Source: an uncultured Eubacteriales bacterium (GTDB lineage Bacteria; Bacillota; Clostridia; Lachnospirales; Lachnospiraceae). Taken from it: a stretch of DNA of 35,465 nt. A program made the translations under genes and the position numbers. Position 1 is the stretch's first letter. The number at the start of each line of letters is the position of its first letter. The DNA lies in assembly GCA_900319355.1 (NCBI GenBank), contig ONOC01000010.1, forward strand, positions 1-35,465. Reading direction: 5' to 3'. The notes below the pieces were generated by a model. The model was not told the origin of the DNA. It saw only the letters and a program-made list of their open reading frames with translations, and searched no databases. This document shows, in pieces, positions 13,372 through 30,844 of this stretch.

Positions 13372-13460
13372 AAGGGGCAGATAAGATAAAACGTTTTTCT
13401 GTTCATCAGCAGACAGGGCGGCCGACCTGAGCTCTGCAATTAATGAAGGAGGCAGAATTC

Positions 13461-14387
13461 ATGGAGGCAGGCAGAGGTGTCTGGCCCGTTATGATCACTC
13501 CGTTCACGGAGGATATGAAAATTGATTATAACGGCGTTGAGAAAATTATTGAATGGTATGACCGCCTCGGTGTAACGGGGATTTTTGCCGTATGTCAGTC
13601 AAGTGAAATGTTCGAGCTGAACGCACAGGAGAGACTGGAACTGGGCAAATTCGTTATTGATCATACACCGAAGCACATTCAGGTTGTCGTATCCGGCCAC
13701 GTAGCCGAAAAACCGGAAGATCAGGTGCGCGAAGCACAGGCAATGATCGATGCCGGAGCCGACACGTATGTATTTATTTCAAATCAGTTTGCAAAACCGG
13801 ATGAAAGCGAAGATGTGGCGAAGAAGAATATCGAGTATCTGATCAGCCATATTGACGCGCCGGCATTCGGCGTATACGAATGCCCTTATCCTTACAAGAG
13901 AGTGATCTCTCCGGAACTGCTCCGCTGGATGGCGGACACCGGAAAGTTCTCCTTCCTGAAGGATACCTGCTGCGATCTGGATATGCTGAAGGCAAAGGCA
14001 GACGCAGTAAGGGGCACGGGACTGAAGATCTACAACGCCAACGGCGCTACGCTTCTTGAATCACTGAAATACGGATGTGCTGGCTATTCGGGTGTGATGT
14101 GCAACTTCTTCCCGGATCTCATCGTATGGCTGGTCGATCAGTTCGACAAACAGCCGGAGCTGGCCGAGGAGATGCAGGACTTCATCGGAGCCGCATCAAC
14201 CATCGAGTGTCAGGTTTACCCCTGCAACAGCAAGTACTACCTGCAGCTGGAGGGACTTCCGATCACCACGAAATCCAGAAAACAGGACGACGCACTGATG
14301 ACCGGATCAAGAAAACTGGAAATCATACAATATCGGAATGTTGTACAGCGTTTCCGTGAGTATTTTTTCAATAAGGTAAAGCAGTAA
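13461..14387 (+). CDS. DapA/NanA-superfamily aldolase
   Basis: A 308-residue class I aldolase of the dihydrodipicolinate synthase/N-acetylneuraminate lyase superfamily. The Schiff-base lysine is K167 (FSFLKDTCC) and the catalytic tyrosine is Y139 (GVYECPYPY). At the substrate-carboxylate loop, where DapA has GTTGE and NanA has GSTGE, this protein reads CQSSE (residues 45-49), so it belongs to a divergent clade whose substrate I cannot name. I chose the ATG at 13461 because AAGGAGG lies 8 nt upstream; the ATG at 13443 precedes that site. It is the first gene of a run with TRAP transporter, YhcH-like and PfkB genes, which points to catabolism of a sugar acid or deoxy-sugar (inference). Sialic acid is possible, but no nanE or nagB is in the window. 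Confidence 0.88.
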   Translation: MEAGRGVWPVMITPFTEDMKIDYNGVEKIIEWYDRLGVTGIFAVCQSSEMFELNAQERLELGKFVIDHTPKHIQVVVSGHVAEKPEDQVREAQAMIDAGADTYVFISNQFAKPDESEDVAKKNIEYLISHIDAPAFGVYECPYPYKRVISPELLRWMADTGKFSFLKDTCCDLDMLKAKADAVRGTGLKIYNANGATLLESLKYGCAGYSGVMCNFFPDLIVWLVDQFDKQPELAEEMQDFIGAASTIECQVYPCNSKYYLQLEGLPITTKSRKQDDALMTGSRKLEIIQYRNVVQRFREYFFNKVKQ

Positions 14388-14420
14388 AAATGCCATATAA
14401 CGTATTAAGGAGGGAAAGAA

Positions 14421-15611
14421 ATGAAACGTAAACTTTTCGCAATCCTGATGAGCACAGCCATGGTTGCAGCTATGGCCGGATGCGGCAGCAGCAGTGCATC
14501 ATCCGCAGCTTCTTCCGCTTCATCAGCATCTTCGGCAGCTTCATCATCATCCACAGCTGAGGCTTCCGCATCTGAGACATCTTCAGCTTCTTCGGCATCA
14601 TCCGAATCCTCGGAGAGCGCATCGTCTTCTTCAGCAGAGACGGTATCCGCTGACAGCTCCGCTGCTTCAGGAGACGTCGGTGATCCGGTAGAGCTGGTAT
14701 TCACCTCAGTATCCGTTACCGGAGACTCCCACACAACGGCTATGCAGGCTTTCGCCGACAAAGTCAATGAGCTGTCCGGCGGCAACGTAACCTGCAAGAC
14801 CTACTCCGACGGCACACTCTTCGCAGCAGACGCCGAGTGGGATGCTCTTGTTTCCGATCAGGCAGATATCGCCTATATCTCCTTCCCGACTCTGGCTACA
14901 CAGGAAGGTCTGGAATGGTGCTCCATGTTCGGTACCGCTTATTTCTGGAACAGCTACGATCATATGACCTCTGTTCTGAACGGCGACATCGGCAAGAACG
15001 AAATCTTCCCGGCTATCGAAGAGAAGGTTAACGCCGTACCGCTTTCCGCTTTCTATCTCGGCGTTCGTGTCATCAACACCAGAAACAAAGAGATCAACTC
15101 CTACTCCGATATGAACGGCGTTCTCCTCAGAATGCCGAACTCCGAGACATGGCTGCATCTCGGCGAGGCACTCGGTGCCAACCCGACCCCGCTGGCTTTC
15201 TCAGAGCTCTATACCGCACTGCAGACCGGCGCCGTTGACGCACAGGATAACCCGCTGCCGACCGACGTTTCCGCCAAGTTCTACGAAGTAGCTCCGTACA
15301 TTGCCATGACCAACCACGTTGTTGACTCCATCATCCCGATGATCAACAAGGATAAATGGAACAGCATGACCGAGCAGCAGCAGAAATGGGTAACCGAGGC
15401 TATGGAATATGCCCGTAAGGTCAACGATGACGCCCGTAAGGAAGAGGAAGACAAGGATGTGCAGACACTGAAGGACAACGGATGCACCATCACTTATCCG
15501 GATATCGACGAGTTCAAGCAGAAAGCAAAAGAGTACTACGATGCTCATCCGGATCAGGAAGCAACCTGGAACATGGATCTGTACAATGAGATTCAGGATG
15601 CTGCAAAGTAA
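14421..15611 (+). CDS. TRAP transporter substrate-binding lipoprotein (DctP)
   Basis: A 396-residue extracytoplasmic solute receptor. Residues 1-21 form a lipoprotein signal with lipobox MAGC (lipidated Cys about 21), followed by a Ser/Ala-rich tether of about 65 residues and then the DctP fold. The conserved Arg that binds the substrate carboxylate lies in GVLLRMPNSETW, and PLAFSELYTALQTGAVDAQDNP is the family's hallmark segment. A carboxylate ligand is therefore expected. Its ribosome binding site is AAGGAGG, 33 nt after the aldolase gene. The tether is long even for Gram-positive receptors. Confidence 0.94.
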   Translation: MKRKLFAILMSTAMVAAMAGCGSSSASSAASSASSASSAASSSSTAEASASETSSASSASSESSESASSSSAETVSADSSAASGDVGDPVELVFTSVSVTGDSHTTAMQAFADKVNELSGGNVTCKTYSDGTLFAADAEWDALVSDQADIAYISFPTLATQEGLEWCSMFGTAYFWNSYDHMTSVLNGDIGKNEIFPAIEEKVNAVPLSAFYLGVRVINTRNKEINSYSDMNGVLLRMPNSETWLHLGEALGANPTPLAFSELYTALQTGAVDAQDNPLPTDVSAKFYEVAPYIAMTNHVVDSIIPMINKDKWNSMTEQQQKWVTEAMEYARKVNDDARKEEEDKDVQTLKDNGCTITYPDIDEFKQKAKEYYDAHPDQEATWNMDLYNEIQDAAK

Positions 15612-15676
15612 ATTCGTTATCAGGGACCTGTAAAACTGCAGACAGCGTCTTTACAGACGTCACATAAATTCATTGC

Positions 15677-15713
15677 GGGCCGGGCGGTATCAAGTCTGTC
15701 CGGTCCGTTTTGT
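15677..15713 (+). terminator. Intra-operon terminator between DctP and DctQ
   Basis: GGGCCGGG (15677-15684) pairs with TCCGGTCC (15699-15706) with G-U wobbles, followed by GTTTTGT. A partly effective terminator here would give more binding protein than membrane subunits, as is common in transporter operons. Confidence 0.6.
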
Positions 15714-15733
15714 GACTTGAGGAGGACAAATTC

Positions 15734-16315
15734 ATGTCGGACGAAAAAAAGAAATCCTCGATCGGCAAAAAAATCCTCGATATCTTCGATGTGGGTGTGA
15801 CGAGTTTCTCGTTTCTGATGGTCTTCATTGCATTCATGATTTCCATCGTCTCCCGCTACTTCCTGCGTGTAGCCGTTTCATGGACCTATGAAATTTCCAT
15901 CCTGGGCTATATGTGGGCGATGTATTTCGGGGTTGCAAAATGTATGGAAAGCGACAGTCATGTCGTCTTCTCTCTGCTTTATGACAAACTTGGTTTCAAA
16001 GGAAAGAAATTCTGTTACATTCTGAACAATACCATGCTTGCTGTTCTGCTGATCATCTGCATCTATCCGTCCATCAAATCATGGGCAGCCAGCAAAATGG
16101 TAACCGGAGTTCTGAAAATCCCGTACAAGGCAGCTTTCTTCCCGTATTTCTATATGGTGATCATGGTCATTGCCCGTGCGATCATTAATATCCGAAAGGG
16201 AATTCATAACGACGTTCCCGGAAACGAAAACGCAGAGCTGTTCGATGCGGCTGCAGAGGCCGGCGAGCAGATTGAGTCAGATCTTTCAGAAGCGAAAGGA
16301 GGAAAAGCAGAATGA
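15734..16315 (+). CDS. TRAP transporter small permease (DctQ)
   Basis: A 193-residue membrane protein with four predicted helices (around residues 17-38, 50-68, 92-110 and 133-155), the standard DctQ topology. SWTYEISILGYMWAMYFG and the following helix match the family. The hydrophilic C-terminus is longer than usual. Its stop codon overlaps the DctM start by 4 nt (ATGA), indicating translational coupling. It forms the membrane complex with DctM. Confidence 0.9.
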   Translation: MSDEKKKSSIGKKILDIFDVGVTSFSFLMVFIAFMISIVSRYFLRVAVSWTYEISILGYMWAMYFGVAKCMESDSHVVFSLLYDKLGFKGKKFCYILNNTMLAVLLIICIYPSIKSWAASKMVTGVLKIPYKAAFFPYFYMVIMVIARAIINIRKGIHNDVPGNENAELFDAAAEAGEQIESDLSEAKGGKAE

Positions 16316-17598
16316 ACTGGCCTATTCTGATCCTGTTTGTTTCCATGGCGTTCTGCTTCTGCATAAGAATGCCGATTTCCTTCTCCATGCTGGCGGCCTC
16401 CGTCATCTACTTCCTGACGAGTGACGTTTCTCAGCTGACACAGGTATTCTCCGTTATCAACGGCAACACCTTCTCGAATTACACCATGCTTGCCGCCCCG
16501 CTTTTCATCTTCATGGCCAACATCATGAATGAATCCGAGGTTACCGACAAGATGTTCGCCTTCTGTAACGGTCTTCTCGGAAAACTGAAAGGCGGCACCG
16601 CACAGGTAAACGTTCTGCTGTCGCTGATTTTCTCCGGTATGACAGGATCCGCCATCGCGGATGCCTCCGGTATCGGTACCATGGAGATCGCTCAGATGAA
16701 GAGCGAGGGTTATGACGCACCGTTCTCGGCAGCCATCACAGCGGCTTCCGCAACGATCGGACCGATCTTCCCTCCGTCCATCCCGATGATCATCTACGCC
16801 ATGCTTTCCGGCGCTTCCGTCGGGCAGCTCTTCATCGGCGGCGTCGTTCCCGGCGTCATGCTGACCATCGTACTTGCCATCTATGTCGGCATCATCTCCT
16901 ATAAGAGAAATTATCCGGCCGGCGTCATTATGACCGGAAAAGAGTTCGGCATGGCAACCCTGAAGGCGCTTCCCGCCCTGCTGACCGTTGTTATCCTTCT
17001 CGGCGGCATCTACACCGGTGTCTGCACACCGACCGAGGCAGGAGCCCTGGCATCTGCCTACGCGCTGATCATCTCCACCTTCGTGTACAGAACGATGGGA
17101 CTGAAAAAGCTCTGGCACATCATCAAGGTTTCCGCAGCCAACACCGCAACGCTGGCGCTGCTGACCGGTACATCCATGCTCTTCTCCTACATCGTTTCCA
17201 GAGAGCAGGTGGCGCAGGTCATCGCAAAAGCCGTTATGTCCATGACGGACAACAAGTACATCTTCCTGCTGATCGTCAACATCGTCTTCCTGTTCCTCGG
17301 AGCAGTCATGGATGTCAGCACGATCCAGCTGGTATTCGTACCGATGATTCTTCCGCTTGTCAAACTGATGGGCATCGACCTCGTACACTTCGGTGTATGC
17401 ATCTGCTTCAACATGATGATCGGTCTGTCCACACCGCCGTTCGGCATGCTGCTGTTCATTGTAACCGGCATCTCGCGGGCAAAAATCAGCGATGTCATAC
17501 GGGAGATCCTGCCCATGGTACTGCTGATGATCGGCGAGCTCTTCCTTCTGGTCTATGTGCCGCAGATCATCATGTTCCTTCCAACTCACATGAAATGA
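16312..17598 (+). CDS. TRAP transporter large permease (DctM)
   Basis: A 428-residue membrane protein with about 11-12 helices. Characteristic segments are PLFIFMANIM, the GSAIADASGIGTMEI stretch, the IGPIFPPSIPMIIYA reentrant motif, and the repeated counterpart STPPFGMLLFI near the C-terminus. It is the sodium-coupled transport subunit of the tripartite system. Length is normal and the frame intact; a terminator follows at 17627. Confidence 0.94.
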   Translation: MNWPILILFVSMAFCFCIRMPISFSMLAASVIYFLTSDVSQLTQVFSVINGNTFSNYTMLAAPLFIFMANIMNESEVTDKMFAFCNGLLGKLKGGTAQVNVLLSLIFSGMTGSAIADASGIGTMEIAQMKSEGYDAPFSAAITAASATIGPIFPPSIPMIIYAMLSGASVGQLFIGGVVPGVMLTIVLAIYVGIISYKRNYPAGVIMTGKEFGMATLKALPALLTVVILLGGIYTGVCTPTEAGALASAYALIISTFVYRTMGLKKLWHIIKVSAANTATLALLTGTSMLFSYIVSREQVAQVIAKAVMSMTDNKYIFLLIVNIVFLFLGAVMDVSTIQLVFVPMILPLVKLMGIDLVHFGVCICFNMMIGLSTPPFGMLLFIVTGISRAKISDVIREILPMVLLMIGELFLLVYVPQIIMFLPTHMK

Positions 17599-17626
17599 CA
17601 GTAACGGTACTGAGAACACGAAACGA

Positions 17627-17659
17627 AGCTGTCCGGAACGTATCCGGGCAGCTTTTTTT
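17627..17659 (+). terminator. Intrinsic terminator after DctM
   Basis: AGCTGTCCGG (17627-17636) pairs with CCGGGCAGCT (17644-17653) with one wobble, followed by seven T. Because the YhcH-like and kinase genes follow on the same strand, this may be partial readthrough control. Confidence 0.8.
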
Positions 17660-17688
17660 ATCAGAATCAATCGACGGAGGTAATGAAA

Positions 17689-18141
17689 ATGATTATTGAC
17701 ACTTTATCCCATGCATCTGTCTATCACCGGATGCCGGATCTTTCCGGTGTACTCGACTTCATCAGCCGCACAGACCTGAACAGCCTTCCTGACGGGAGGA
17801 CGGACATTGACGGCGACAATCTCTACGTCATGATCCAGCGCCCGGAGCTGAAACAGGCTGCCGAAGCCCTGCCGGAGGCTCATGACAGGTATATTGATTT
17901 TCAGCTTGTGCTGAAGGGCGAAGAGCTGATGGGATATGCAAAGCGAAGCGAACTGGGAGACCCGGTAAAATCCGACGCGGCACACGACATCTATTTCTAC
18001 CGGCAGCCGGAGGGCATGCCGCTTTTACCGGTCCGCGAGGGCATGTTCGCGGTCTTCTATCCCGGTGATGCCCATGCGCCCTGCATCCGGACCGGTGCCT
18101 GCGGTGCCAGCGTCAAAGCCGTCTTCAAAATAAAGGTATAA
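17689..18141 (+). CDS. YhcH/YjgK/YiaL family protein
   Basis: A 150-residue beta-sandwich protein of the family that includes EbgC and the sialic-acid-operon protein YhcH/NanQ. Members are thought to speed up sugar anomer conversion or otherwise assist sugar catabolism. The conserved EAHDRYIDFQLVLKGEELM segment and the later PGDAHAPC carry the metal-binding His/Glu set. I chose the ATG at 17689 (GGAGG, 8 nt spacing); the ATG at 17683 is too close to the ribosome binding site. Its position after a TRAP system and before a sugar kinase supports a role with the imported sugar. Confidence 0.88.
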   Translation: MIIDTLSHASVYHRMPDLSGVLDFISRTDLNSLPDGRTDIDGDNLYVMIQRPELKQAAEALPEAHDRYIDFQLVLKGEELMGYAKRSELGDPVKSDAAHDIYFYRQPEGMPLLPVREGMFAVFYPGDAHAPCIRTGACGASVKAVFKIKV

Positions 18142-18232
18142 GGCTGCGATTTTCTCTGTATTGTGATAGTATATGGCTGTCGGCTGTACCGGCAGAACCG
18201 CACACCGAAGGTGGGTACCAGAAGGAGTTTTC

Positions 18233-19126
18233 ATGCGCGTATTAAATTTCGGATCACTGAATGTAGATTATGTATATAAGGTTGACCATATCCTCGTCAG
18301 GGGCGAAACCCTGCAGTCCGGTTCGCGCCGTATCTTCAGCGGCGGCAAGGGGCTGAACCAGTCGGTTGCTCTCGCAAGGGCAGGCCTTGAGGTATATCAT
18401 GCCGGCAGCACCGGTCAGGGCGGAGAATTTCTCACCGGTGTTCTCGAAGATGCCGGCGTCCACACGGATTTTGTCCGGGTGCTGAAGGACACACCGTGCG
18501 GGCACACCGTCATTCAGAACGATAAAGACGGTGACAACTGCATCCTCCTCTTCGGCGGCGCCAATCAGTGCATCACCGATGAACAGGTCGATGAGGTACT
18601 CTCTCACTTCGGCAGCGAGGACACCCTGGTTCTCCAGAACGAAATCAACGCCAATGTGAAGATCATGGAGAAGGCGCACGAGAAAGGACTCACGATTGTG
18701 CTGAATCCCTCTCCCTTCGATGAAAAAATCGCGGCACTTCCGCTTTCGTACGTCGATATCTTCTTCATGAACGAAATCGAAGCCGCGCAGATGGCAGGCA
18801 TCCGCTCTGACGATCCGGATGCGCTTCTGGACAGTCTCGAGGCGAAATTCCCGGAGGCACGGCTGGTGCTCACCCTGGGCGGGGCAGGCTCCGTGTGCAG
18901 CTTCCGGGGCGAAAGAACCCGCCAGCAGATCTATCCGGTGCATGCGGTTGATACTACGGCGGCCGGCGATACTTTCACAGGATTTTTCCTCTCCGGTATT
19001 CTCCGGGGGCTTGACACAAAGGAAGCGCTCGATCTGGCATCCCGGGCTTCCGCGGTCGCGGTCACACGGCCGGGCGCAGCGCCGTCCATACCGACGCTGA
19101 AAGAGGTGGAGGCATACCGGTTCTGA
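18233..19126 (+). CDS. PfkB/ribokinase family sugar kinase
   Basis: A 297-residue ATP-dependent carbohydrate kinase. The N-terminal signature is SGGKGLNQSVALARAG (about residues 37-52). The C-terminal signature is DTTAAGDTFTGFF (about 239-251), with the catalytic Asp in AAGD forming the anion hole. NPSPFD and MNEIEA are typical of ribokinases. The ribosome binding site is GAAGGAG, 5-6 nt before the ATG. The closest named relative is ribokinase, but its place after an aldolase/TRAP/YhcH set suggests the substrate is a product of that pathway. Confidence 0.9.
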   Translation: MRVLNFGSLNVDYVYKVDHILVRGETLQSGSRRIFSGGKGLNQSVALARAGLEVYHAGSTGQGGEFLTGVLEDAGVHTDFVRVLKDTPCGHTVIQNDKDGDNCILLFGGANQCITDEQVDEVLSHFGSEDTLVLQNEINANVKIMEKAHEKGLTIVLNPSPFDEKIAALPLSYVDIFFMNEIEAAQMAGIRSDDPDALLDSLEAKFPEARLVLTLGGAGSVCSFRGERTRQQIYPVHAVDTTAAGDTFTGFFLSGILRGLDTKEALDLASRASAVAVTRPGAAPSIPTLKEVEAYRF

Positions 19127-23542: not shown

Positions 23543-24274
23543 ATGCACAAGCTTCAGCGTGCCGGAATGCAGGATACAGAGGAATGCTGTGCCATCCTCG
23601 AGGACGGGAAAAAGTATCAGAGAGCCCAGGGATTTGTTCACTGGCCCGACGACTATCCGCAGAAAAGAGATGTCGTGGACGACATCTCTCATCATGCAGG
23701 TTATATCTATGTGATTGACGGTCAGATTGCGGCCTGCCTCAGCCTTCATCTGGACGGTGAGCCCTTCTACAGTGACCCGAGAGCGAAATGGCGCACTGAC
23801 AGTCCGTGTGCGGTTCTGCAGAACCTGGCCGTTGCCGCTCCGTTCCGCAGCCGTCATCTCGCAGGAGAGATCCTCGATGCGGTCGGACTGCTCTGCTGCG
23901 TCTTGGGCATCAGTTACATCCGGACCGACATCACCATGCCCAACCGCCGCATGCAGCACATCGCGGAAAAGCACGGCTTCGTCAGATGCGGTCTCGTCAG
24001 CTGGAACGGCGGCGATCATTTCTCCTATGACCGGATTCTCACGCGCAGCCTCCAGAAACTTGCAGATGAGGAGATGGCACGCGCCGCTGCTGCCCGGAAA
24101 GCTCAGCCTGCCGCCGTCATGCCGCAGGACAGCGTTCCGTCACATACAGGTGCGGCTGATCCTGCCATGGCCACCATGGTGATGCCGGAAAGGCTTGCAC
24201 GTGCCACAGCTCCTGCCGGGAGTTCCATGGTTACGACCGGCACGGTTCATGTGAGCGCCAGTTCAAACCCGTAA
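23543..24274 (+). CDS. GNAT family N-acetyltransferase with Ala-rich tail
   Basis: A 243-residue protein. Residues about 1-175 form a GNAT domain: YIYVIDGQIAACLSL (beta4), then VLQNLAVAAPFRSRHLAGEIL with a loose acetyl-CoA loop, and NRRMQHIAEKHGFVRCG at the end, a typical GNAT closing motif. The last 65 residues are a low-complexity Ala/Pro/Met-rich tail without a recognisable fold. Its 3' end overlaps the convergent GNAT gene by 28 bp. The acceptor substrate is unknown. Ribosome binding site AGGAG, 6 nt before the ATG. Confidence 0.8.
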   Translation: MHKLQRAGMQDTEECCAILEDGKKYQRAQGFVHWPDDYPQKRDVVDDISHHAGYIYVIDGQIAACLSLHLDGEPFYSDPRAKWRTDSPCAVLQNLAVAAPFRSRHLAGEILDAVGLLCCVLGISYIRTDITMPNRRMQHIAEKHGFVRCGLVSWNGGDHFSYDRILTRSLQKLADEEMARAAAARKAQPAAVMPQDSVPSHTGAADPAMATMVMPERLARATAPAGSSMVTTGTVHVSASSNP

Positions 24275-24681
24275 CAGCTTTTCTCAAAGCCGTAATTTTC
24301 GTAAAACTGATGCGCGTCCTTCCTCGGAAGGCCGGAATCAAGAATCAGCGCCTTGCATCCTTTTTCTCTGGCCATCTCCGCGGCGCGGTCCATCATCATT
24401 CTGCCGTAGCCCTTGTGGCGCTTTTCTTTCTTTGTAATGATGCTGGATACGTAGCAGGTCAGGCCGCACATCCAGAACGTCTGAAAATAATCCCCGTGGC
24501 AGAAGCCCGTGTATTCTCCGTCATCCAGCAGGAAAAATGCAAAACTGTCCGGATCGTTTATGACCTTTTCATACACCTTCTTCGTCGGCTCATCCTCATA
24601 GGTGTTGTAATCCCACAGCGCTCTGATAAATTTCATTGCCTCCGGGAAATCGTCCATCGAAGCCTTTCTGAATTCGATCAT
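24247..24681 (-). CDS. GNAT family N-acetyltransferase
   Basis: A 144-residue compact GNAT protein. FFLLDDGEYTGFCHGDYF forms beta4. The acetyl-CoA loop is EKRHKGYGRMMMDRAAEMA (Q/R-x-x-G-x-G/A type, here RHKGYG), and the closing motif is HQFYENYGFEK. It probably acetylates a small molecule or protein N-terminus; the substrate is unknown. It converges with and overlaps the other GNAT gene. A 15-nt tandem repeat lies just upstream of its ribosome binding site. Confidence 0.88.
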   Translation of the reverse strand: MIEFRKASMDDFPEAMKFIRALWDYNTYEDEPTKKVYEKVINDPDSFAFFLLDDGEYTGFCHGDYFQTFWMCGLTCYVSSIITKKEKRHKGYGRMMMDRAAEMAREKGCKALILDSGLPRKDAHQFYENYGFEKSCYGFELALT

Positions 24682-24695
24682 CCGTCTCTCACCTG

Positions 24696-24732
24696 CCCTT
24701 TCTTACGGGGCCCTTTCTTACGGGGCCCTTTC
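24696..24732. repeat. 15-nt tandem repeat
   Basis: CCCTTTCTTACGGGG occurs twice in tandem (24696-24710, 24711-24725), followed by CCCTTTC. It lies between the fusion gene stop and the GNAT gene start. Its ends pair through GGGGCCC, so the junction may fold. Confidence 0.9.
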
Positions 24733-24748
24733 ATGACCGGTTCTGACC

Positions 24749-27577
24749 TCAGGACACGGCCTCGCTGCCTCTTCTGTAGAGTGCCTTCCTGTACAGTGCC
24801 TCGATATCCTTCTGGTTCAGCTCAACCGGTGTGTTGGTCAGATTGCCTGCGGAAACCTTCATGCAGTTCTCAGCCAGCCATGCCACATCGCTCTCCTGTA
24901 CGCCGAGATCTGACAATGTGATATCCAGATCCAGATCGCGGAGGAACGAGCGGATTTTTTCCGCGCAGTCCTCAGCGGTATAGCCGCCCATCATGCGGGC
25001 GAGCCGGCCGAATTTATACCGGTTACCGCTCCAGGTTGCTTCAACTACTGTCGGCGCCAGTGCGGCAAGTCCCTGCCCGTGAACGACATTCTTCAGTCCG
25101 CTTACCGGATGCTCCATGCCGTGGGCCAGCGTCACACCGGCGGTATTGATGACCATGCCTCCGATCGTGCTCGCGATCGACATTTCCTCCCACGCCTTCA
25201 TGCTTTCTTTGCCGTGGTACAGATCAGGCAGATTCTTCAGAATCAGCGGGATCGCATACATGGCAAGTGCGTCCGTGAAAGGCTGCGACCTGTTCGCCGT
25301 ATATGCCTCGATGCAGTGGCACAGCGCGTCGAAGCCGACCGATGCCAGAACCTTCTTCGGCATCGTCATCATGCACTCCGGGTCGACGATGGAAACTTTC
25401 GCCACAATCGCCGGGCAGCGCAGTGATTTCTTGTCTCCGTTCTCCGGATTGGTGAGAACCGCGAAGCCATTGCCCTCCGAACCTGTACCGCAGGTCGTCG
25501 GGATCAGGACAAGCGGCAGTGCGTTGTCGCTGTGTTTTCTGTTGTAGATGTAGTCATTGATATCACCGTCATTGACGGCCATGAAGGCCATGCCCTTCGC
25601 AGCATCCATGATGGATCCGCCGCCGATGGCAACGATGACATCCGCACCGGTCTTCTTCGCGAGCTCAGCACCCTCGATGGCTGTCGTTGTCAGCGGGTTC
25701 TGCGAAACCTTATCATACAGTTCCGTCTCAAATCCTGCCTTCTTCAGGCTGTTGTTCACCTTGTCATACAGGCCGGACTTCTTCGCACTGGAATGGCCGG
25801 TAACGATCAGTGCCCTGCTGCCGTAGGGCTTTGCCAGTTCTCCGACCTGACCGGCTTTTCCCGGTCCGAATACAATATTCACCGGAAGGAAATAGCTGAA
25901 AGCCGCTTCCTTTGCCGCAGTAACCGTTCTGCCGGCAGCGGACACGCGGTCCAGTGCCGCAGCCACCTCGGCCTGCTCTACCGTTGCCGCCGTAGCGCCT
26001 GCAGGAACTGCTGCCGGACGTGGAGCCGATACCGCAGCGCCTGCCGCAGGAGAAGCTGCTCCCGGAACGGCGGCCGCAGGTGCACCGGCTTCTTTCGCAG
26101 CGATATCCGCCGCAGCCTCGCGCTCCTTCGCATATTCCTCATCAAGCTCCGCGTTGGCGATCTCGACAAGCGTACCGAACTTTTCACCGTAAACGGCTCT
26201 GCAGCCAAACAGGAAGACAACACCCAGAGCAAACCAGCCGCCGACAATAAGCCATTCTACCGGCTGAAGCGTTGCACCGGTTCCGGGCAGAATGTACATG
26301 ATAACCATAAAGCCGGACATGATAATGGTCATCGCGCCAACCAGCTTATAATGCTTTACCTTATAAGGTCTCGGCATCGTCGGCTCTTTCTTCCGGAGGA
26401 TAACAAACGACATGGCAACCATGCAGTAGGCAAGGCAGCACGCCAGGTTGCCGGCATCAACGATCCATACCAGCATCTTCCGGCCGAGAAGCGGTGCGAG
26501 ACAGCTCAGCAGACCGATCAGAATCAGAGCAGTGATCGGAGTCTTGTATTTCGGGTGAAGCTTTCCGAATGCCTTCGGGATCATGTAGGAAACAGCCATG
26601 GAATACATCGCACGGCTGCCGCCGATCAGGAAAGAGTTCCAGCTGGTCACAATACCGCAGAGACCGCCGACAATCAGTACCTTCGCCATCACCGAGCTGT
26701 TAAACGCCGCCGCCATCGCGTCGGCTGTCACCAGACCGCTGCCGGAAGTCGCCGCTGCCGTGATCTGGTCATGATTCATCACAAGGCCGACAGACAGGAT
26801 GATCAGTGCATAGAAGGTAACGGCCAGAATGATCGAAAGCAGAAGCATTCTGGCGATTTTTTTCAGCGGGACATTGATTTCCTCCGCCGCCTGCGGGATG
26901 ACGTCGAATCCGATGAAATAGAAGGGGCTCATCATGGCCACGCGGAGGATATTTCCGAAGATGCTGCCGCTGCTGCCGCCGATGAAGGCCTGCGAAGAGA
27001 CGTTGGACGGATCTCCATTGATCACCGAAGCCGCGATCAGAAGAATGCCGGCGCCGCCGATAATGCAGGTCAGAATGGTCTGCATGATCGCAGCGGTTTT
27101 TGCACCCCGGATGTTGATCCAGGTGATAAAAACCGCCACCGCAATGGCCACGGCAAGCCAGGACGCATAGACGTCAAAGCCCGCTACCGTATACAGATAA
27201 CCTTTAAGGAAATGCGGATCCAGATAAGTGATAATGGTGGGCAGCGCACATGCCTCAAAGCAGACAACGCTGACGTAGCCCAGAATGATCGCCCAGGTGC
27301 AGACAAAAGATCCGTAGGGACCCATCGCACGATAGCTGAATACGTGCTCGCCGCCGCATTCCGGCATGGCGGGCGTCAGCTCCGCATAGGTCAGTCCAAT
27401 GAAGAAAATCATCACGCCGCCGAGAATAAATCCGAGCATGGCGCCAATGACACCGCCGCGGTCGATCCAGTCACCGGTCGAAACGACCCATCCCCATCCG
27501 ATCATAGCGCCGAAGGCAATCACCAGGATGTCCCATGCGCTGAAGACCTTATTGAATTCCGATTGCTGTTTTTCCAT
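24749..27577 (-). CDS. APC amino acid permease fused to iron-dependent alcohol dehydrogenase
   Basis: A 942-residue fusion in one open frame. Residues about 10-465 are an APC-superfamily permease with 12 predicted helices; helix 1 has AFGAMIGWGWV, and PECGGEHVFSYRAMGPYG follows helix 2. Both ends should be cytoplasmic. Residues 470-500 are charged. About 498-555 form an Ala/Pro-rich linker. Residues about 561-935 are a complete group III Fe-dependent alcohol dehydrogenase: GGGSIMD (652-658), PTTCGTGSE (693-701) and metal ligands D750, H754, H819 and H833. I chose the ATG at 27577 (GGAGG, 8 nt spacing); an upstream start would add 41 residues read through the leader hairpin. With the GabT-like gene upstream, the likely role is import of an omega-amino acid and reduction of its semialdehyde (for GABA, succinate semialdehyde to 4-hydroxybutyrate). 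The substrate is inferred. Confidence 0.92.
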   Translation of the reverse strand: MEKQQSEFNKVFSAWDILVIAFGAMIGWGWVVSTGDWIDRGGVIGAMLGFILGGVMIFFIGLTYAELTPAMPECGGEHVFSYRAMGPYGSFVCTWAIILGYVSVVCFEACALPTIITYLDPHFLKGYLYTVAGFDVYASWLAVAIAVAVFITWINIRGAKTAAIMQTILTCIIGGAGILLIAASVINGDPSNVSSQAFIGGSSGSIFGNILRVAMMSPFYFIGFDVIPQAAEEINVPLKKIARMLLLSIILAVTFYALIILSVGLVMNHDQITAAATSGSGLVTADAMAAAFNSSVMAKVLIVGGLCGIVTSWNSFLIGGSRAMYSMAVSYMIPKAFGKLHPKYKTPITALILIGLLSCLAPLLGRKMLVWIVDAGNLACCLAYCMVAMSFVILRKKEPTMPRPYKVKHYKLVGAMTIIMSGFMVIMYILPGTGATLQPVEWLIVGGWFALGVVFLFGCRAVYGEKFGTLVEIANAELDEEYAKEREAAADIAAKEAGAPAAAVPGAASPAAGAAVSAPRPAAVPAGATAATVEQAEVAAALDRVSAAGRTVTAAKEAAFSYFLPVNIVFGPGKAGQVGELAKPYGSRALIVTGHSSAKKSGLYDKVNNSLKKAGFETELYDKVSQNPLTTTAIEGAELAKKTGADVIVAIGGGSIMDAAKGMAFMAVNDGDINDYIYNRKHSDNALPLVLIPTTCGTGSEGNGFAVLTNPENGDKKSLRCPAIVAKVSIVDPECMMTMPKKVLASVGFDALCHCIEAYTANRSQPFTDALAMYAIPLILKNLPDLYHGKESMKAWEEMSIASTIGGMVINTAGVTLAHGMEHPVSGLKNVVHGQGLAALAPTVVEATWSGNRYKFGRLARMMGGYTAEDCAEKIRSFLRDLDLDITLSDLGVQESDVAWLAENCMKVSAGNLTNTPVELNQKDIEALYRKALYRRGSEAVS

Positions 27578-27630
27578 AACCAAATCCTCCGCAGCAGACT
27601 GACGTGAAACGGATACAAACGCTTCATAAT

Positions 27631-27686
27631 ATAAATAAAGACGCCGGAACAGACCCGTATTCCCGGGTTGTTCTGGCGCCTTCGCC
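27631..27686 (-). promoter_or_regulatory. Leader attenuator of the permease-ADH gene
   Basis: On the minus strand a long stem (GGCGCC at 27680-27675 with GGCGTC at 27645-27640, inner GAACA/TGTTC and ACCCG/CGGGT) is followed by TTTATTTAT. The 5' arm can instead form a small hairpin GGCG-AAGG-CGCC (27686-27675). The same arrangement occurs before gabT at 29921-29969. It may also serve as a partial terminator after the kinase-like gene. Confidence 0.65.
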
Positions 27687-27735
27687 CTGCCGTTCATCAT
27701 TGTAACAGGCTATGCCTCATCAGAAGACATGTCTG

Positions 27736-28332
27736 TCATTCACCAAGCATCTCAACAAGCATCAGAAGATACTTTGCTGTTTTTTCCCATCCGAGCAGGC
27801 TGCTGTCGATCAGCAGATTTCTCTGCGAGCGGTCACCCCTGTAGGTACCTGTAATGTACTTATGTCTCGAATGGTTCATCTCATCATTATAGTCGATAAT
27901 TTCTTTTGCTTTGTCCTCAGCTACGTGATCCTGTTCCATAATGGAGCGCACGCGCACATCCTTCGGTGCATAGATAAAGATGTTCAGCACATTATCTCTG
28001 TCCTTCAGAATGTAGTTGGCACTCCGTCCGATGATCACGCACGGGGATTTTTCCGCCATCTGATTGATGACTTCATACTGCGTATAAATAACGCGGTTCG
28101 TAAGATTGGCATATCTGGGTCCGAGGGAAGTCTCGAAGCTGTACTGAACGCTTTTCTTTTTATCCGCTTCCTCGACAAGTCCGCGGTCTACGCCCAGCTG
28201 CTCAACTACCTTATCCACCAGATCCCTGTCGTAATACTCGATACCGAGTTTCTGCGAGAGCATCTTACCGATCTGCGGACCGCCTGCTCCATATTCGCAT
28301 CCGATGGTGATGACCAGATGTTCTCTGTCCAT
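27736..28332 (-). CDS. Cytidylate kinase-like family protein
   Basis: A 198-residue P-loop protein of the cytidylate-kinase-like group, common in Clostridia next to metabolic and transport genes. The P-loop is GCEYGAGGPQIGK (variant of G-S-G-G-x-x-I-G-K), followed by LGIEYYDRDLVDKV. VIIGRSANYIL and the R-rich lid DVRVRSIMEQDHV come later. True CMP kinase activity is doubtful, since a separate cmk is usual in these genomes; a regulatory or other small-molecule kinase role is possible. The ATG at 28332 has AAGGAG 6 nt upstream. It lies between gabT and the fusion gene on the same strand. Confidence 0.85.
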   Translation of the reverse strand: MDREHLVITIGCEYGAGGPQIGKMLSQKLGIEYYDRDLVDKVVEQLGVDRGLVEEADKKKSVQYSFETSLGPRYANLTNRVIYTQYEVINQMAEKSPCVIIGRSANYILKDRDNVLNIFIYAPKDVRVRSIMEQDHVAEDKAKEIIDYNDEMNHSRHKYITGTYRGDRSQRNLLIDSSLLGWEKTAKYLLMLVEMLGE

Positions 28333-28363
28333 AATAATCTCCTTATCAGTCCGCCGCATGTCT

Positions 28364-28413
28364 CAGAACAGAACTGCACACCTTAAGGGGGTGTGCAGTG
28401 CCGGTCTGTTCTG
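28364..28413 (-). other. Long stem-loop between gabT and the kinase-like gene
   Basis: ACTGCACACC (28373-28382) pairs with GGTGTGCAGT (28390-28399), and CAGAACAG (28364-28371) with CTGTTCTG (28406-28413), an 18-bp two-part stem. No U-tract follows on either strand, so it is more likely an mRNA processing or stability element than a terminator. Confidence 0.6.
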
Positions 28414-28458: not shown

Positions 28459-29820
28459 TCAGCCCTCAAGTGCTTCCTTCAGAGACTCCTCGAAGATCTC
28501 GAGTCCTCTCTTCGTCTGCTCATCCGTCATGCAGAGCGGTGCAAGGAAACGGACTACATTGCTTGCCGTACCTGCGTTCTCAATCAGAAGGCCCTTGTGA
28601 AGTGCGTTCTGAATCAGCTTCTGTGTCAGCTCGGTCGCCGGCTCCTTTGTCTCAGGATCCTTGACGAACTCGATACCGATCATGGCGCCGAGGCCTCTGA
28701 TATCGCCGATCACCGGATACTTCTTTTGCATTTCCTTATATCCGTCGGTGATCATCTTGCCGATATGACGGGCCTTTGCAGGATAATCTTCTTCCTTATA
28801 AATCTTCATGGCTGCGAGTGCCGAAGCGCAGGAAACCGGGTTGCCGCAGTAGGTGCCGCCGATGGTTCCGGGCTTTGCCGCATCCATCACCTCAGCACGG
28901 CCGGTAATAGCGGAAATCGGCATGCCGCCGCCAAGAGACTTGGCTGTTGTGATGATATCCGGTGCAGCGCCTGCCTCTGCCCAGTACTCGGAAGCGAAAT
29001 ACTTGCCGGTACGGCAGTTACCGCACTGAACCTCATCGGCAATAAGAAGGATGCCGTTGTCGTCGCAGATCTTCCTGATGGCCTTTACCCATTCGATAGG
29101 AGCCGGAATGAATCCGCCCTCGCCCTGCAGCGGCTCAACCAGCATGCAGGCAACTTCATTGGCCGGTGTAGCCTCATCAAATACTCTGTACATCGCATCG
29201 ATGTAATACTTGATGGCTTCGTCTCTGCTGTATCCCTTCGGAGCTCTGTACAGATAAGGATACGGCGCTCTGTAGATACCTGCCGGGAACGGTCCCATGC
29301 CCTGTGAATATGCCTTCTTGGCGGTCAGCGCCATGGTCAGGTTGGTACGGCCGTGGAATGCGCCGGAGAAGCAGATGACGTTGCTTCTGCCTGTGTAAGC
29401 CTTTGCGATCTTGATGGCGTTCTCATCGCACTCAGCGCCGGAGTTTGCAAAGTATGTCTTCTTGTGATCACCGCGGCACGGCATCAGCTCATTCAGGCCC
29501 TCTGCCAGTTTTACATATCCCTCATGTCCGATGATATTGAAGATGGTGTGGAAATACTTCGGTGCCTGCTCCTGAACGGCCTTTACCAGTTCCGGACGGG
29601 AATATCCGATATTCAGTACGCCTACGCCGCCGATCCAGTCAAGGAACTTGTTGCCGTCGACATCCTGGATCATCGCGCCTTCGCCGTGATCGATCACAAC
29701 AGGATAGGTTGTTCCGCACAGTGCCTTCGGCACATTGGCGTCTCTTCTCTCAAAAATGGCCTTGCCCTTCGGTCCGGGAATAGAAGTTACAATTTCAGGC
29801 AGATCCTCACGTAATGACAT
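28459..29820 (-). CDS. gabT: Class III PLP-dependent aminotransferase (GabT-like)
   Basis: A 453-residue fold-type I omega-aminotransferase. Motifs in order: VVIDHGEGAMIQDVDGN, ANSGAECDENAIKIA (PLP phosphate site), SGAFHGRTNLTMALT, LVEPLQGEGGFIPAP, D262 in ADEVQCG (pyridine N), and the Schiff-base lysine K294 in TTAKSLGGGMP. Length and motifs fit 4-aminobutyrate aminotransferase/PuuE. Beta-alanine, 5-aminovalerate or ornithine transaminases are hard to rule out by eye. The ATG at 29820 follows GAAGGAGG. It is divergent from an XRE-cupin regulator and upstream of the permease-ADH gene, so it should supply the aldehyde for that dehydrogenase domain. Its leader contains an intrinsic terminator. 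Confidence 0.9.
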   Translation of the reverse strand: MSLREDLPEIVTSIPGPKGKAIFERRDANVPKALCGTTYPVVIDHGEGAMIQDVDGNKFLDWIGGVGVLNIGYSRPELVKAVQEQAPKYFHTIFNIIGHEGYVKLAEGLNELMPCRGDHKKTYFANSGAECDENAIKIAKAYTGRSNVICFSGAFHGRTNLTMALTAKKAYSQGMGPFPAGIYRAPYPYLYRAPKGYSRDEAIKYYIDAMYRVFDEATPANEVACMLVEPLQGEGGFIPAPIEWVKAIRKICDDNGILLIADEVQCGNCRTGKYFASEYWAEAGAAPDIITTAKSLGGGMPISAITGRAEVMDAAKPGTIGGTYCGNPVSCASALAAMKIYKEEDYPAKARHIGKMITDGYKEMQKKYPVIGDIRGLGAMIGIEFVKDPETKEPATELTQKLIQNALHKGLLIENAGTASNVVRFLAPLCMTDEQTKRGLEIFEESLKEALEG

Positions 29821-29920: not shown

Positions 29921-29969
29921 AAAAAAAACGCCTCCCGCACAGATTGCCTGTGCAAAAGACGCCTTCGTC
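29921..29969 (-). promoter_or_regulatory. Leader attenuator of gabT
   Basis: Reading the minus strand, CGTCTTTTGCACAG (29961-29948), loop GCAAT and CTGTGCGGGAGGCG (29942-29929) form a 14-bp stem with G-U pairs, followed by eight T. It is an intrinsic terminator about 110 nt before the gabT ATG, with no minus-strand gene upstream, so it sits in the gabT leader. Its 5' arm can instead form GACG-AAGG-CGTC (29969-29958). The trigger (protein, ligand or leader translation) is unknown. Confidence 0.7.
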
Positions 29970-30250: not shown

Positions 30251-30296
30251 CATGGCTGTCATTATCCATTATAAAGTACATTCGGAGGTCGATCCA

Positions 30297-30844
30297 TGGA
30301 CTATCTGGAACACAATATATCGGAAAATCTTCACCGCTACCGCACCAGCCACGGCTGGAGTCTCGACAATGCCGCCGAACAGACCGGCGTCAGCAAGAGT
30401 ATGCTCGCGCAGATAGAGAAGGGCTGTGCAAACCCCTCCATCGGCACGCTCGGCAAAATCGCCACCGGTCTTCGTATCAGCTTCAATGATCTCATCAGCC
30501 CGCCGCCGATGGACACCTGCACCATCGATGTGCTGAACACGGAGCCCATCAAGAAAAGCGAAAACAACTACAGAGTCTGGAACTGCTTCCCCTATGAGGA
30601 CAACCAGATGGTGGAAATCTACCGGATCGACCTCGAAGAAGACGGCGTTTATTCCAGCGGAAGCCACGGCGAGCGAACCAGGGAATACCTGTGCGTCACC
30701 GAAGGCGAAGTCATCATCCGCATCGACGGCAAGAGCTATCCTGTGCCGAAAGACAGCTGCTTCCGCTTCGAATCCGACCGTCCGCACCAGTATATCGGGA
30801 AAAAGAAATCCAATTCTCTCGTGATGTTCTTTGTATCCTGCTGA
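30297..30844 (+). CDS. XRE family regulator with cupin domain (PuuR-like)
   Basis: A 182-residue regulator. It has an N-terminal Cro/C1 helix-turn-helix (about residues 8-65: SLDNAAEQTGVSKSMLAQIEKGCANPSIGTLGKIA) and a C-terminal cupin_2 domain (about 105-180: GSHGERTREYLCVTEGEVIIRIDG...DSCFRFESDRPHQYIG). This is the architecture of PuuR, which represses putrescine/GABA catabolism in E. coli. It is divergent from gabT with inverted repeats between them, so it most likely senses the amine or amino acid handled by this cluster (inference). GGAGG lies 8 nt before the ATG. I place the start at that ATG, 30296-30298, to within one base. Confidence 0.9.

Follow-up and report, generated by a model that had tools for sequence, protein, structure and literature searches.

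Enzyme domains attached to transporters represent a generally known kind of arrangement. Among iron alcohol dehydrogenases (Fe-ADHs), ADH/D1 (5yvm), 1,3-propanediol oxidoreductase (3bfj), and lactaldehyde reductase FucO share the same full domain with Asp/His/His/His ligands, while in fusions of the AdhE type (e.g., 9ldl and 8uhw) the Fe-ADH forms the C-terminal part of a fused enzyme. A gene row of Ilyobacter polytropus, as annotated, comprises PucR, permease, gabT, and 4-hydroxybutyrate dehydrogenase. No description of a fusion of a permease with an ADH was found in the open-licence full-text literature, a body outside which most subscription journals fall.

Such a fusion is encoded in a 35,465-nt stretch of DNA, called here the window (contig ONOC01000010.1, assembly GCA_900319355.1), of an uncultured Eubacteriales bacterium of the family Lachnospiraceae, whose genome assembly of 2.25 Mb in 131 contigs is 87.8% complete. 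The fusion is genuine and recurrent, and a read-through accident is excluded.

The Fused Gene and Its Product

The fused gene and its parts are as follows:

24749..27577, minus strand: fused CDS of 942 aa, comprising an APC permease, a linker, and an iron alcohol dehydrogenase (domain matches, recurrence in relatives)
26087..27577, minus strand: permease part, residues 1–497 (PF13520, 130 bits; PF00324, 128 bits; AlphaFold2 helices)
25895..26086, minus strand: linker, residues 498–561 (pLDDT below 50; variable among relatives)
24752..25894, minus strand: Fe-ADH domain, residues 562–942 (PF00465, 179 bits; PF25137, 158 bits; ligands; Foldseek)

The frame 24749–27577 (−) codes for 942 residues with zero internal stops. 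An alternative in-frame ATG at 27700 would give a longer frame; it is unlikely to be the start, since GGAGG lies 8 nt 5′ of the ATG at 27577 and the relatives align from the latter Met. The initial annotation of this DNA proposed one continuous frame through a 12-TM permease, a linker, and a complete Fe-ADH with the ligands D750, H754, H819, and H833, and all of this is confirmed: the frame is open and recurs open in many relatives, and the properties of both domains agree with the proposal. The permease part belongs to the AA_permease_2 family (PF13520, residues 12–443; 130.3 bits against a gathering cut-off of 27) and likewise to PF00324 (128.2 bits against 24.6), and its helices predicted with AlphaFold2 are compatible with 12 TM segments plus a C-terminal helix, residues 476–497. 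The ADH part is a member of the iron alcohol dehydrogenases, with Fe-ADH (PF00465) at residues 565–733 and ADH_Fe_C (PF25137) at 745–933, both above the gathering cut-offs, and with the four ligands at the positions named, all of which are retained in 31 of the 33 aligned fused proteins. The best 50 Foldseek matches listed are Fe-ADHs, with the best TM score of about 0.9 by target length. AlphaFold2, supplied with an alignment of 33 fused proteins, predicts both the helical membrane part and the ADH part mostly with confidence; the linker pLDDT is below 50 and the pTM 0.53, so the prediction does not extend to the relative placement of the two.

Judging by substitution rates, both domains are under purifying selection: the dN/dS between the window gene and L006 or L012 is 0.07–0.10 for the permease and 0.08–0.12 for the ADH, values that are rough because synonymous sites are close to saturation. 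A narrow scan of the 46 listed fused genes, duplicates included, found an in-frame start codon at the domain boundary in 16, only one of which (L051) is preceded by a Shine-Dalgarno-like string, so internal initiation is unlikely to supply the ADH as a separate protein.

The linker was originally delimited as about residues 498–555; the low-confidence stretch covers 498–561, is predicted to be disordered, and holds a weak helix predicted with low confidence at 533–549. It is the fastest-evolving part of the protein, with a dN/dS of 0.18–0.19 (window versus L006 or L012). Its length ranges from 12 to 63 residues across the aligned columns of 33 fused proteins, or from 26 to 89 by a wider definition, and in 34 linkers alanine constitutes 7–40% and proline 0–9%. 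An alanine content of 26–40% is seen in a ten-row set of the permease tree comprising the window, L006–L012, L034, and duplicates; the remaining linkers have 7–28% alanine and more Glu and Lys, and even L068, L069, and L104, members of the wider clade of the window, have no Ala-rich linker. The swinging linker of the E2 type is taken as an Ala/Pro-rich composition conserved across relatives. The linker does not answer to this description: its length and composition vary and it is strongly Ala-rich only around the branch of the window, so the earlier comparison with E2 proteins as a sign of selection fails as a family trait. A short helix motif, defined only after the sequences had been inspected, occurs in 23 of 24 unfused permease tails and in 20 of 36 fused linkers (shuffle means 1.2 and 1.5, respectively), while its hydrophobic moment in the fused linkers hardly exceeds the shuffled maximum; a helix common to the tails and linkers is a lead only.

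Occurrence in Relatives

Genome contigs scanned with patterns from the window protein gave 58 loci, and genome samples gave further ones. In the resulting set of 72 distinct permease sequences (matches above 380 bits, the window's included), the two-domain architecture recurs in 37, a proportion that is not a natural frequency since the loci were found by likeness to a fused query. The ADH is of the usual kind in 35 of these and diverged in two. Another permease is fused to a kinase, 14 have a separate related ADH within 6 kb, seven have a different Fe-ADH nearby, and 13 have no ADH within the available flanking DNA, one of them (L067) being cut by a contig end, with a frame that extends past the permease before that end. 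The two domains are thus not always separate genes in the relatives, among which both states are found. A read-through, a frameshift, or an assembly artefact is ruled out by the open fused frame in many independent genomes, and the part of the initial interpretation that opposed the fusion to an accident is borne out by this recurrence and by the constraint on both domains.

The fusion was found in 15 of the 397 genomes of the family sample, the window's included, which also contained four permease genomes with frames of at most 494 residues. The class sample (391 genomes, E 1e-120) yielded no fused genome other than the window's, and its six permease-match frames have 477–513 residues. Of 121 genomes from the family to which a Pseudoscardovia genome belongs, seven carry the fusion in frames of 913–950 residues (950 in G923). 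By record title, the carriers comprise Pseudoscardovia suis DSM 24744, P. radai DSM 24742, Clostridium sp. MSJ-8, Oliverpabstia intestinalis, and Anaerostipes sp. MSJ-23; the others are mostly MAGs recorded as Lachnospiraceae, Clostridiales, or Eubacterium, besides two of Megasphaera and one of Epulopiscium. The carriers span two NCBI phyla, Bacillota and Actinomycetota. A search of plasmids with the protein (E 1e-60) gave 15 records, none with a single place covering 80% of the query.

Origin and Fate of the Fusion

Of the 14 relatives in which a related ADH is encoded separately, 12 have its gene directly after the permease gene, at most 40 bases downstream or overlapping, which argues that the fusion joined operon neighbours. 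In L015, L016, L018, L019, and L025 the ADH frame begins straight after a single permease stop. The two exceptions are L040, with a transaminase in between, and L050 of A. hallii, with the ADH upstream.

The quick permease tree contains two main fused clades with unfused permeases in between, at modest support and with L028 unresolved. Two origins of the fusion, suggested by this tree, were nevertheless not retained, as a single clade of 38 fused rows is not rejected (p-AU 0.516) in a test from which seven long or distant rows were excluded and for which the group was named after the tree had been seen. The ADH tree has a 45-row set (support 95) comprising 36 fused rows, seven with no permease in the available DNA, and two listed as split. 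Three of these nine non-fused rows are explained otherwise: L058 is a fused frame interrupted by a frameshift, L071 lies at a contig end, and L049, initially regarded as an ADH without a permease, is most plausibly the L033 sequence assembled in inverted form, with 99.8% identical blocks in reversed order. At most six rows therefore point to real fission, and their position inside a mainly fused ADH set suggests that the fusion can be undone. The picture is complicated by the fused L026, in which the ADH groups with unfused ADHs (support 91) and the permease with fused ones. The two Megasphaera rows stand apart in the trees on a very long branch. The Bifidobacteriaceae fusions nest beside the branch of the window in both the permease and ADH trees (support 84–88), a placement that suggests the transfer of an already fused gene.

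The Cassette

The fused gene is accompanied by the following features:

24247..24681, minus strand: GNAT acetyltransferase, downstream of the fused gene (Pfam)
27625..27680, minus strand: strong hairpin followed by a T-rich tail, in the gap that separates the kinase and fused genes (read from the sequence)
27736..28359, minus strand: cytidylate-kinase-like protein (PF13189), cassette partner (Pfam; recurrence upstream of fused genes)
28459..29820, minus strand: GabT-like class III aminotransferase, cassette partner (PF00202, 402 bits; aligned to E. coli GabT)
30296..30844, plus strand: HTH-cupin regulator, divergent (PF01381 and PF07883)

A PF13189 kinase and, usually, a class III transaminase go with the fusion. 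A PF13189 kinase gene lies on the same strand within 1.2 kb upstream of all 35 fused genes for which 1.2 kb or more of upstream sequence is available, and likewise upstream of 20 of 32 unfused permeases. An aminotransferase gene is present within 6 kb in 21 of the 22 fused loci for which 5 kb or more of upstream sequence is available; these loci have a GabT-like aminotransferase (at least 55%) in 15 cases and one below 45% in 16, a representative of the latter reaching the ArgD subfamily cut-off. The GabT-like transaminase of the array, noted from the beginning, is upheld by the Pfam match and the alignment with E. coli GabT. Related ORFs of the HTH-cupin and GNAT types were found in 15 and nine of the 58 loci, respectively, several of which have short flanks.

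The region 27575–27740 folds unusually well (z = −4.13), and its hairpin, 27625–27680, is a possible attenuator or terminator; it is not listed by a consensus scan. Each of the three cassette genes is preceded by a hairpin, at 29924–29966 (−), terminator-like with a run of T, at 28373–28399 (−), and at 27640–27680 (−), and these hairpins may act as attenuators. The Rfam scan of the window gave zero matches above the gathering score. Two tandem copies of a ca. 15-base unit, seen by eye at about 24695–24732, lie in the intergenic stretch that separates the fused gene from the GNAT gene. Elsewhere in the window, the region 13443–18141 (+) encodes a TRAP transporter together with DHDPS-like and YhcH-like proteins, and a PfkB gene (18173–19126) comes next; the row looks like one for catabolism of the sialic acid type, a name derived from its gene content.

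Several loci with related components were also recorded. In Diplocloster modestus (L063:881–2926) a biotin carboxylase carries a fused PF13189 kinase domain, near a LamB/YcsF gene and a transaminase–ADH pair. In L076, L077, L084, L127, L128, and L130 an Fe-ADH adjoins a class III aminotransferase with no permease of this family nearby.

Substrate and Pathway

Among the matches listed, no NCBIfam equivalog cut-off is reached by the ADH, the permease, or the transaminase, so the substrate has to be deduced from the neighbouring genes. The window ADH scores 181 bits with the 4-hydroxybutyrate dehydrogenase model NF058672 (cut-off 500), a model that does not cover the Ilyobacter branch, as the annotated Ilyobacter enzyme itself scores only 117 bits; it scores 256.3 bits with ErcA NF041833 (cut-off 550), 202.5 with SarD NF050025 (cut-off 700), and 206.3 with lactaldehyde reductase TIGR02638 (cut-off 523.15). 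The permease gives 53.1 bits with the GABA permease model TIGR01773 (cut-off 678.1), while the transaminase narrowly misses the 4-aminobutyrate transaminase model TIGR00700 (494 bits against 506.65). R158, E234, and R424 of the transaminase align with R141, E211, and R398 of E. coli GabT, the residues that hold the carboxylate of GABA.

The permease and GabT of the Ilyobacter row are 53.7% and 43% identical to those of the window, respectively. In genome G418 the row comprises PucR, a transaminase (79% to the window's), a permease–kinase fusion, and, as a gene of its own, an ADH with 42% identity to the Ilyobacter enzyme annotated as 4-hydroxybutyrate dehydrogenase. This permease family is thus paired with at least three Fe-ADH lineages; this pairing and the two rows are the strongest indication that semialdehyde reduction is tied to the transport step and that the substrate is GABA-like. 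The likely task of the cassette is the uptake of GABA or a similar amino acid, its transamination, and reduction to a hydroxy acid. The order import, transamination, reduction put forward in the initial annotation is supported by the cassette and by the rows of the relatives, while the identity of the substrate is deduced from neighbours only.

A butyrate route by 4-hydroxybutyryl-CoA dehydratase, a member of the HpaB family, was considered and set aside: this family is absent from seven of the eight genomes searched, i.e., the window's and six named strains, including the unfused A. hallii, and present in one Megasphaera genome. For the window genome the absence is weak evidence, given its 87.8% completeness; excretion of the hydroxy acid would fit it.

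Diverged and Kinase-Fused Variants

In two Megasphaera MAGs (L035 and L036) the fused ADH domain, from about residue 515, has no metal ligands: D750 is replaced by T or A, H754 by Q, H819 by E or A, and H833 by P, and GGGS has become GGND. The domain is 32–35% identical to its best matches, mostly fused ADHs, and about 23–25% to the other lineage. The frame remains open, and structure prediction still gives an Fe-ADH fold, although 13 of the 15 aligned rows are intact ADHs. The dN/dS between the two MAGs is 0.19 for the ADH domain versus 0.04 for the permease, and both genomes contain other matches to the ADH part. The two domains are apparently catalytically dead, and the pair shows that the ADH domain can persist, at least for some time, after its catalytic site is lost. 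In G418 (L141:5154–7331 (−), the same as L115), a permease of the same family is fused to the PF13189 kinase instead of ADH, in a protein of 726 aa.

Possible Role of the Fusion

The locus is probably best explained as a genuine transporter–enzyme fusion in an omega-amino-acid cassette for import, transamination, and reduction, formed by stop loss and kept. The permease would import GABA or a close analogue (beta-alanine or 5-aminovalerate), a separate transaminase would convert it to a semialdehyde, and the ADH domain, expected to face the cytosol since both termini of a permease with 12 helices lie inside the cell, would reduce the semialdehyde with NAD(P)H to a hydroxy acid; upon its excretion the cell would gain nitrogen and dispose of electrons. 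The fusion would have arisen through loss of the stop between adjacent genes and been retained for fixed stoichiometry and location. Simple channelling from the permease to the ADH does not work, because the intervening transamination step is absent from the chain. As transamination separates import from reduction, the gain from linking these two that makes most sense would be product exchange, in which, as a guess, the product of the reductase exits by the same permease in exchange for the incoming amino acid. Co-localisation or such exchange is ranked first, a harmless fusion second, and gating third.

A near-neutral operon fusion, with the stop lost, the enzymes unchanged, and no channelling, exchange, or regulation gained, is possible but less probable. 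It would account for the five unfused relatives with the ADH frame right after the permease stop (in others the genes overlap or lie within 30 bases), for the drift of the linker in length and composition, and for the separate ADHs inside the mainly fused ADH-tree set; however, the fused form persists in many species of Bacillota and Actinomycetota with both parts constrained, and the scarcity of Shine-Dalgarno-like strings at the boundary starts (1/16) argues against a supply of free ADH. That the ADH domain is chiefly a sensor or gate, binding NAD(H) or the semialdehyde and switching the permease, with catalysis secondary or lost, is unlikely. The Megasphaera domains, kept in frame after loss of the four ligands and GGGS with a dN/dS below 1 and a predicted Fe-ADH fold, speak for it, but they come from two MAGs of one genus, have a dN/dS about five times that of their permeases, and have a fold predicted from an alignment dominated by intact ADHs (13 of 15 rows), while the other 31 of the 33 fused proteins keep every ligand. 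Even less credit is due to taurine, instead of GABA, as the substrate; taurine would be taken up, transaminated to sulfoacetaldehyde, and then reduced to isethionate. The fold matches do include a sulfoacetaldehyde reductase, 6jko of Bifidobacterium kashiwanohense, and the carriers include some Bifidobacteriaceae, yet 6jko is 20th of the best 50 matches listed (28% identity, 146.7 bits), the SarD score is far below its cut-off, and the transaminase resembles GabT and retains the carboxylate-binding arginines. A bolder reading, with a low probability, would make the fusion a self-contained exchange and control unit, in which the permease swaps the omega-amino acid for the hydroxy acid of its own ADH and the redox state of the tail gates it; the Megasphaera tail would then serve gating only, and the kinase fusion would be a second control variant.

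The fused, unfused, kinase-swapped, and apparently dead natural versions constitute a ready test of transporter–enzyme joining. If the GABA reading is true, the cassette may be the gene set with which Lachnospiraceae of the gut and rumen, and some Bifidobacteriaceae, make hydroxy acids from GABA-like amino acids.

Comparison with Known Systems

The Ilyobacter row resembles the window cassette in combining a related permease and a related transaminase with an Fe-ADH; it differs in that these are separate genes, its Fe-ADH is of another lineage (26% to the window ADH), and no kinase is annotated among the 16 features listed. The nearest solved sequence to the permease part is that of 5oqt, a bacterial amino acid transporter of the same APC family (PF13520; PDB sequence match), and the 15 matched solved sequences, one of them a GFP construct, have no enzyme domain in their descriptions, unlike the window protein. 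The ADH domain has the complete domain and the ligands in common with ADH/D1, 1,3-propanediol oxidoreductase, and FucO, the best matches reaching a TM score of about 0.9 by target length at about 30–35% identity, but differs from them in being covalently attached to a permease. The fusion shares with the AdhE type the C-terminal position of the Fe-ADH, while the N-terminal partner is an aldehyde dehydrogenase in the latter and a membrane transporter in the window protein.
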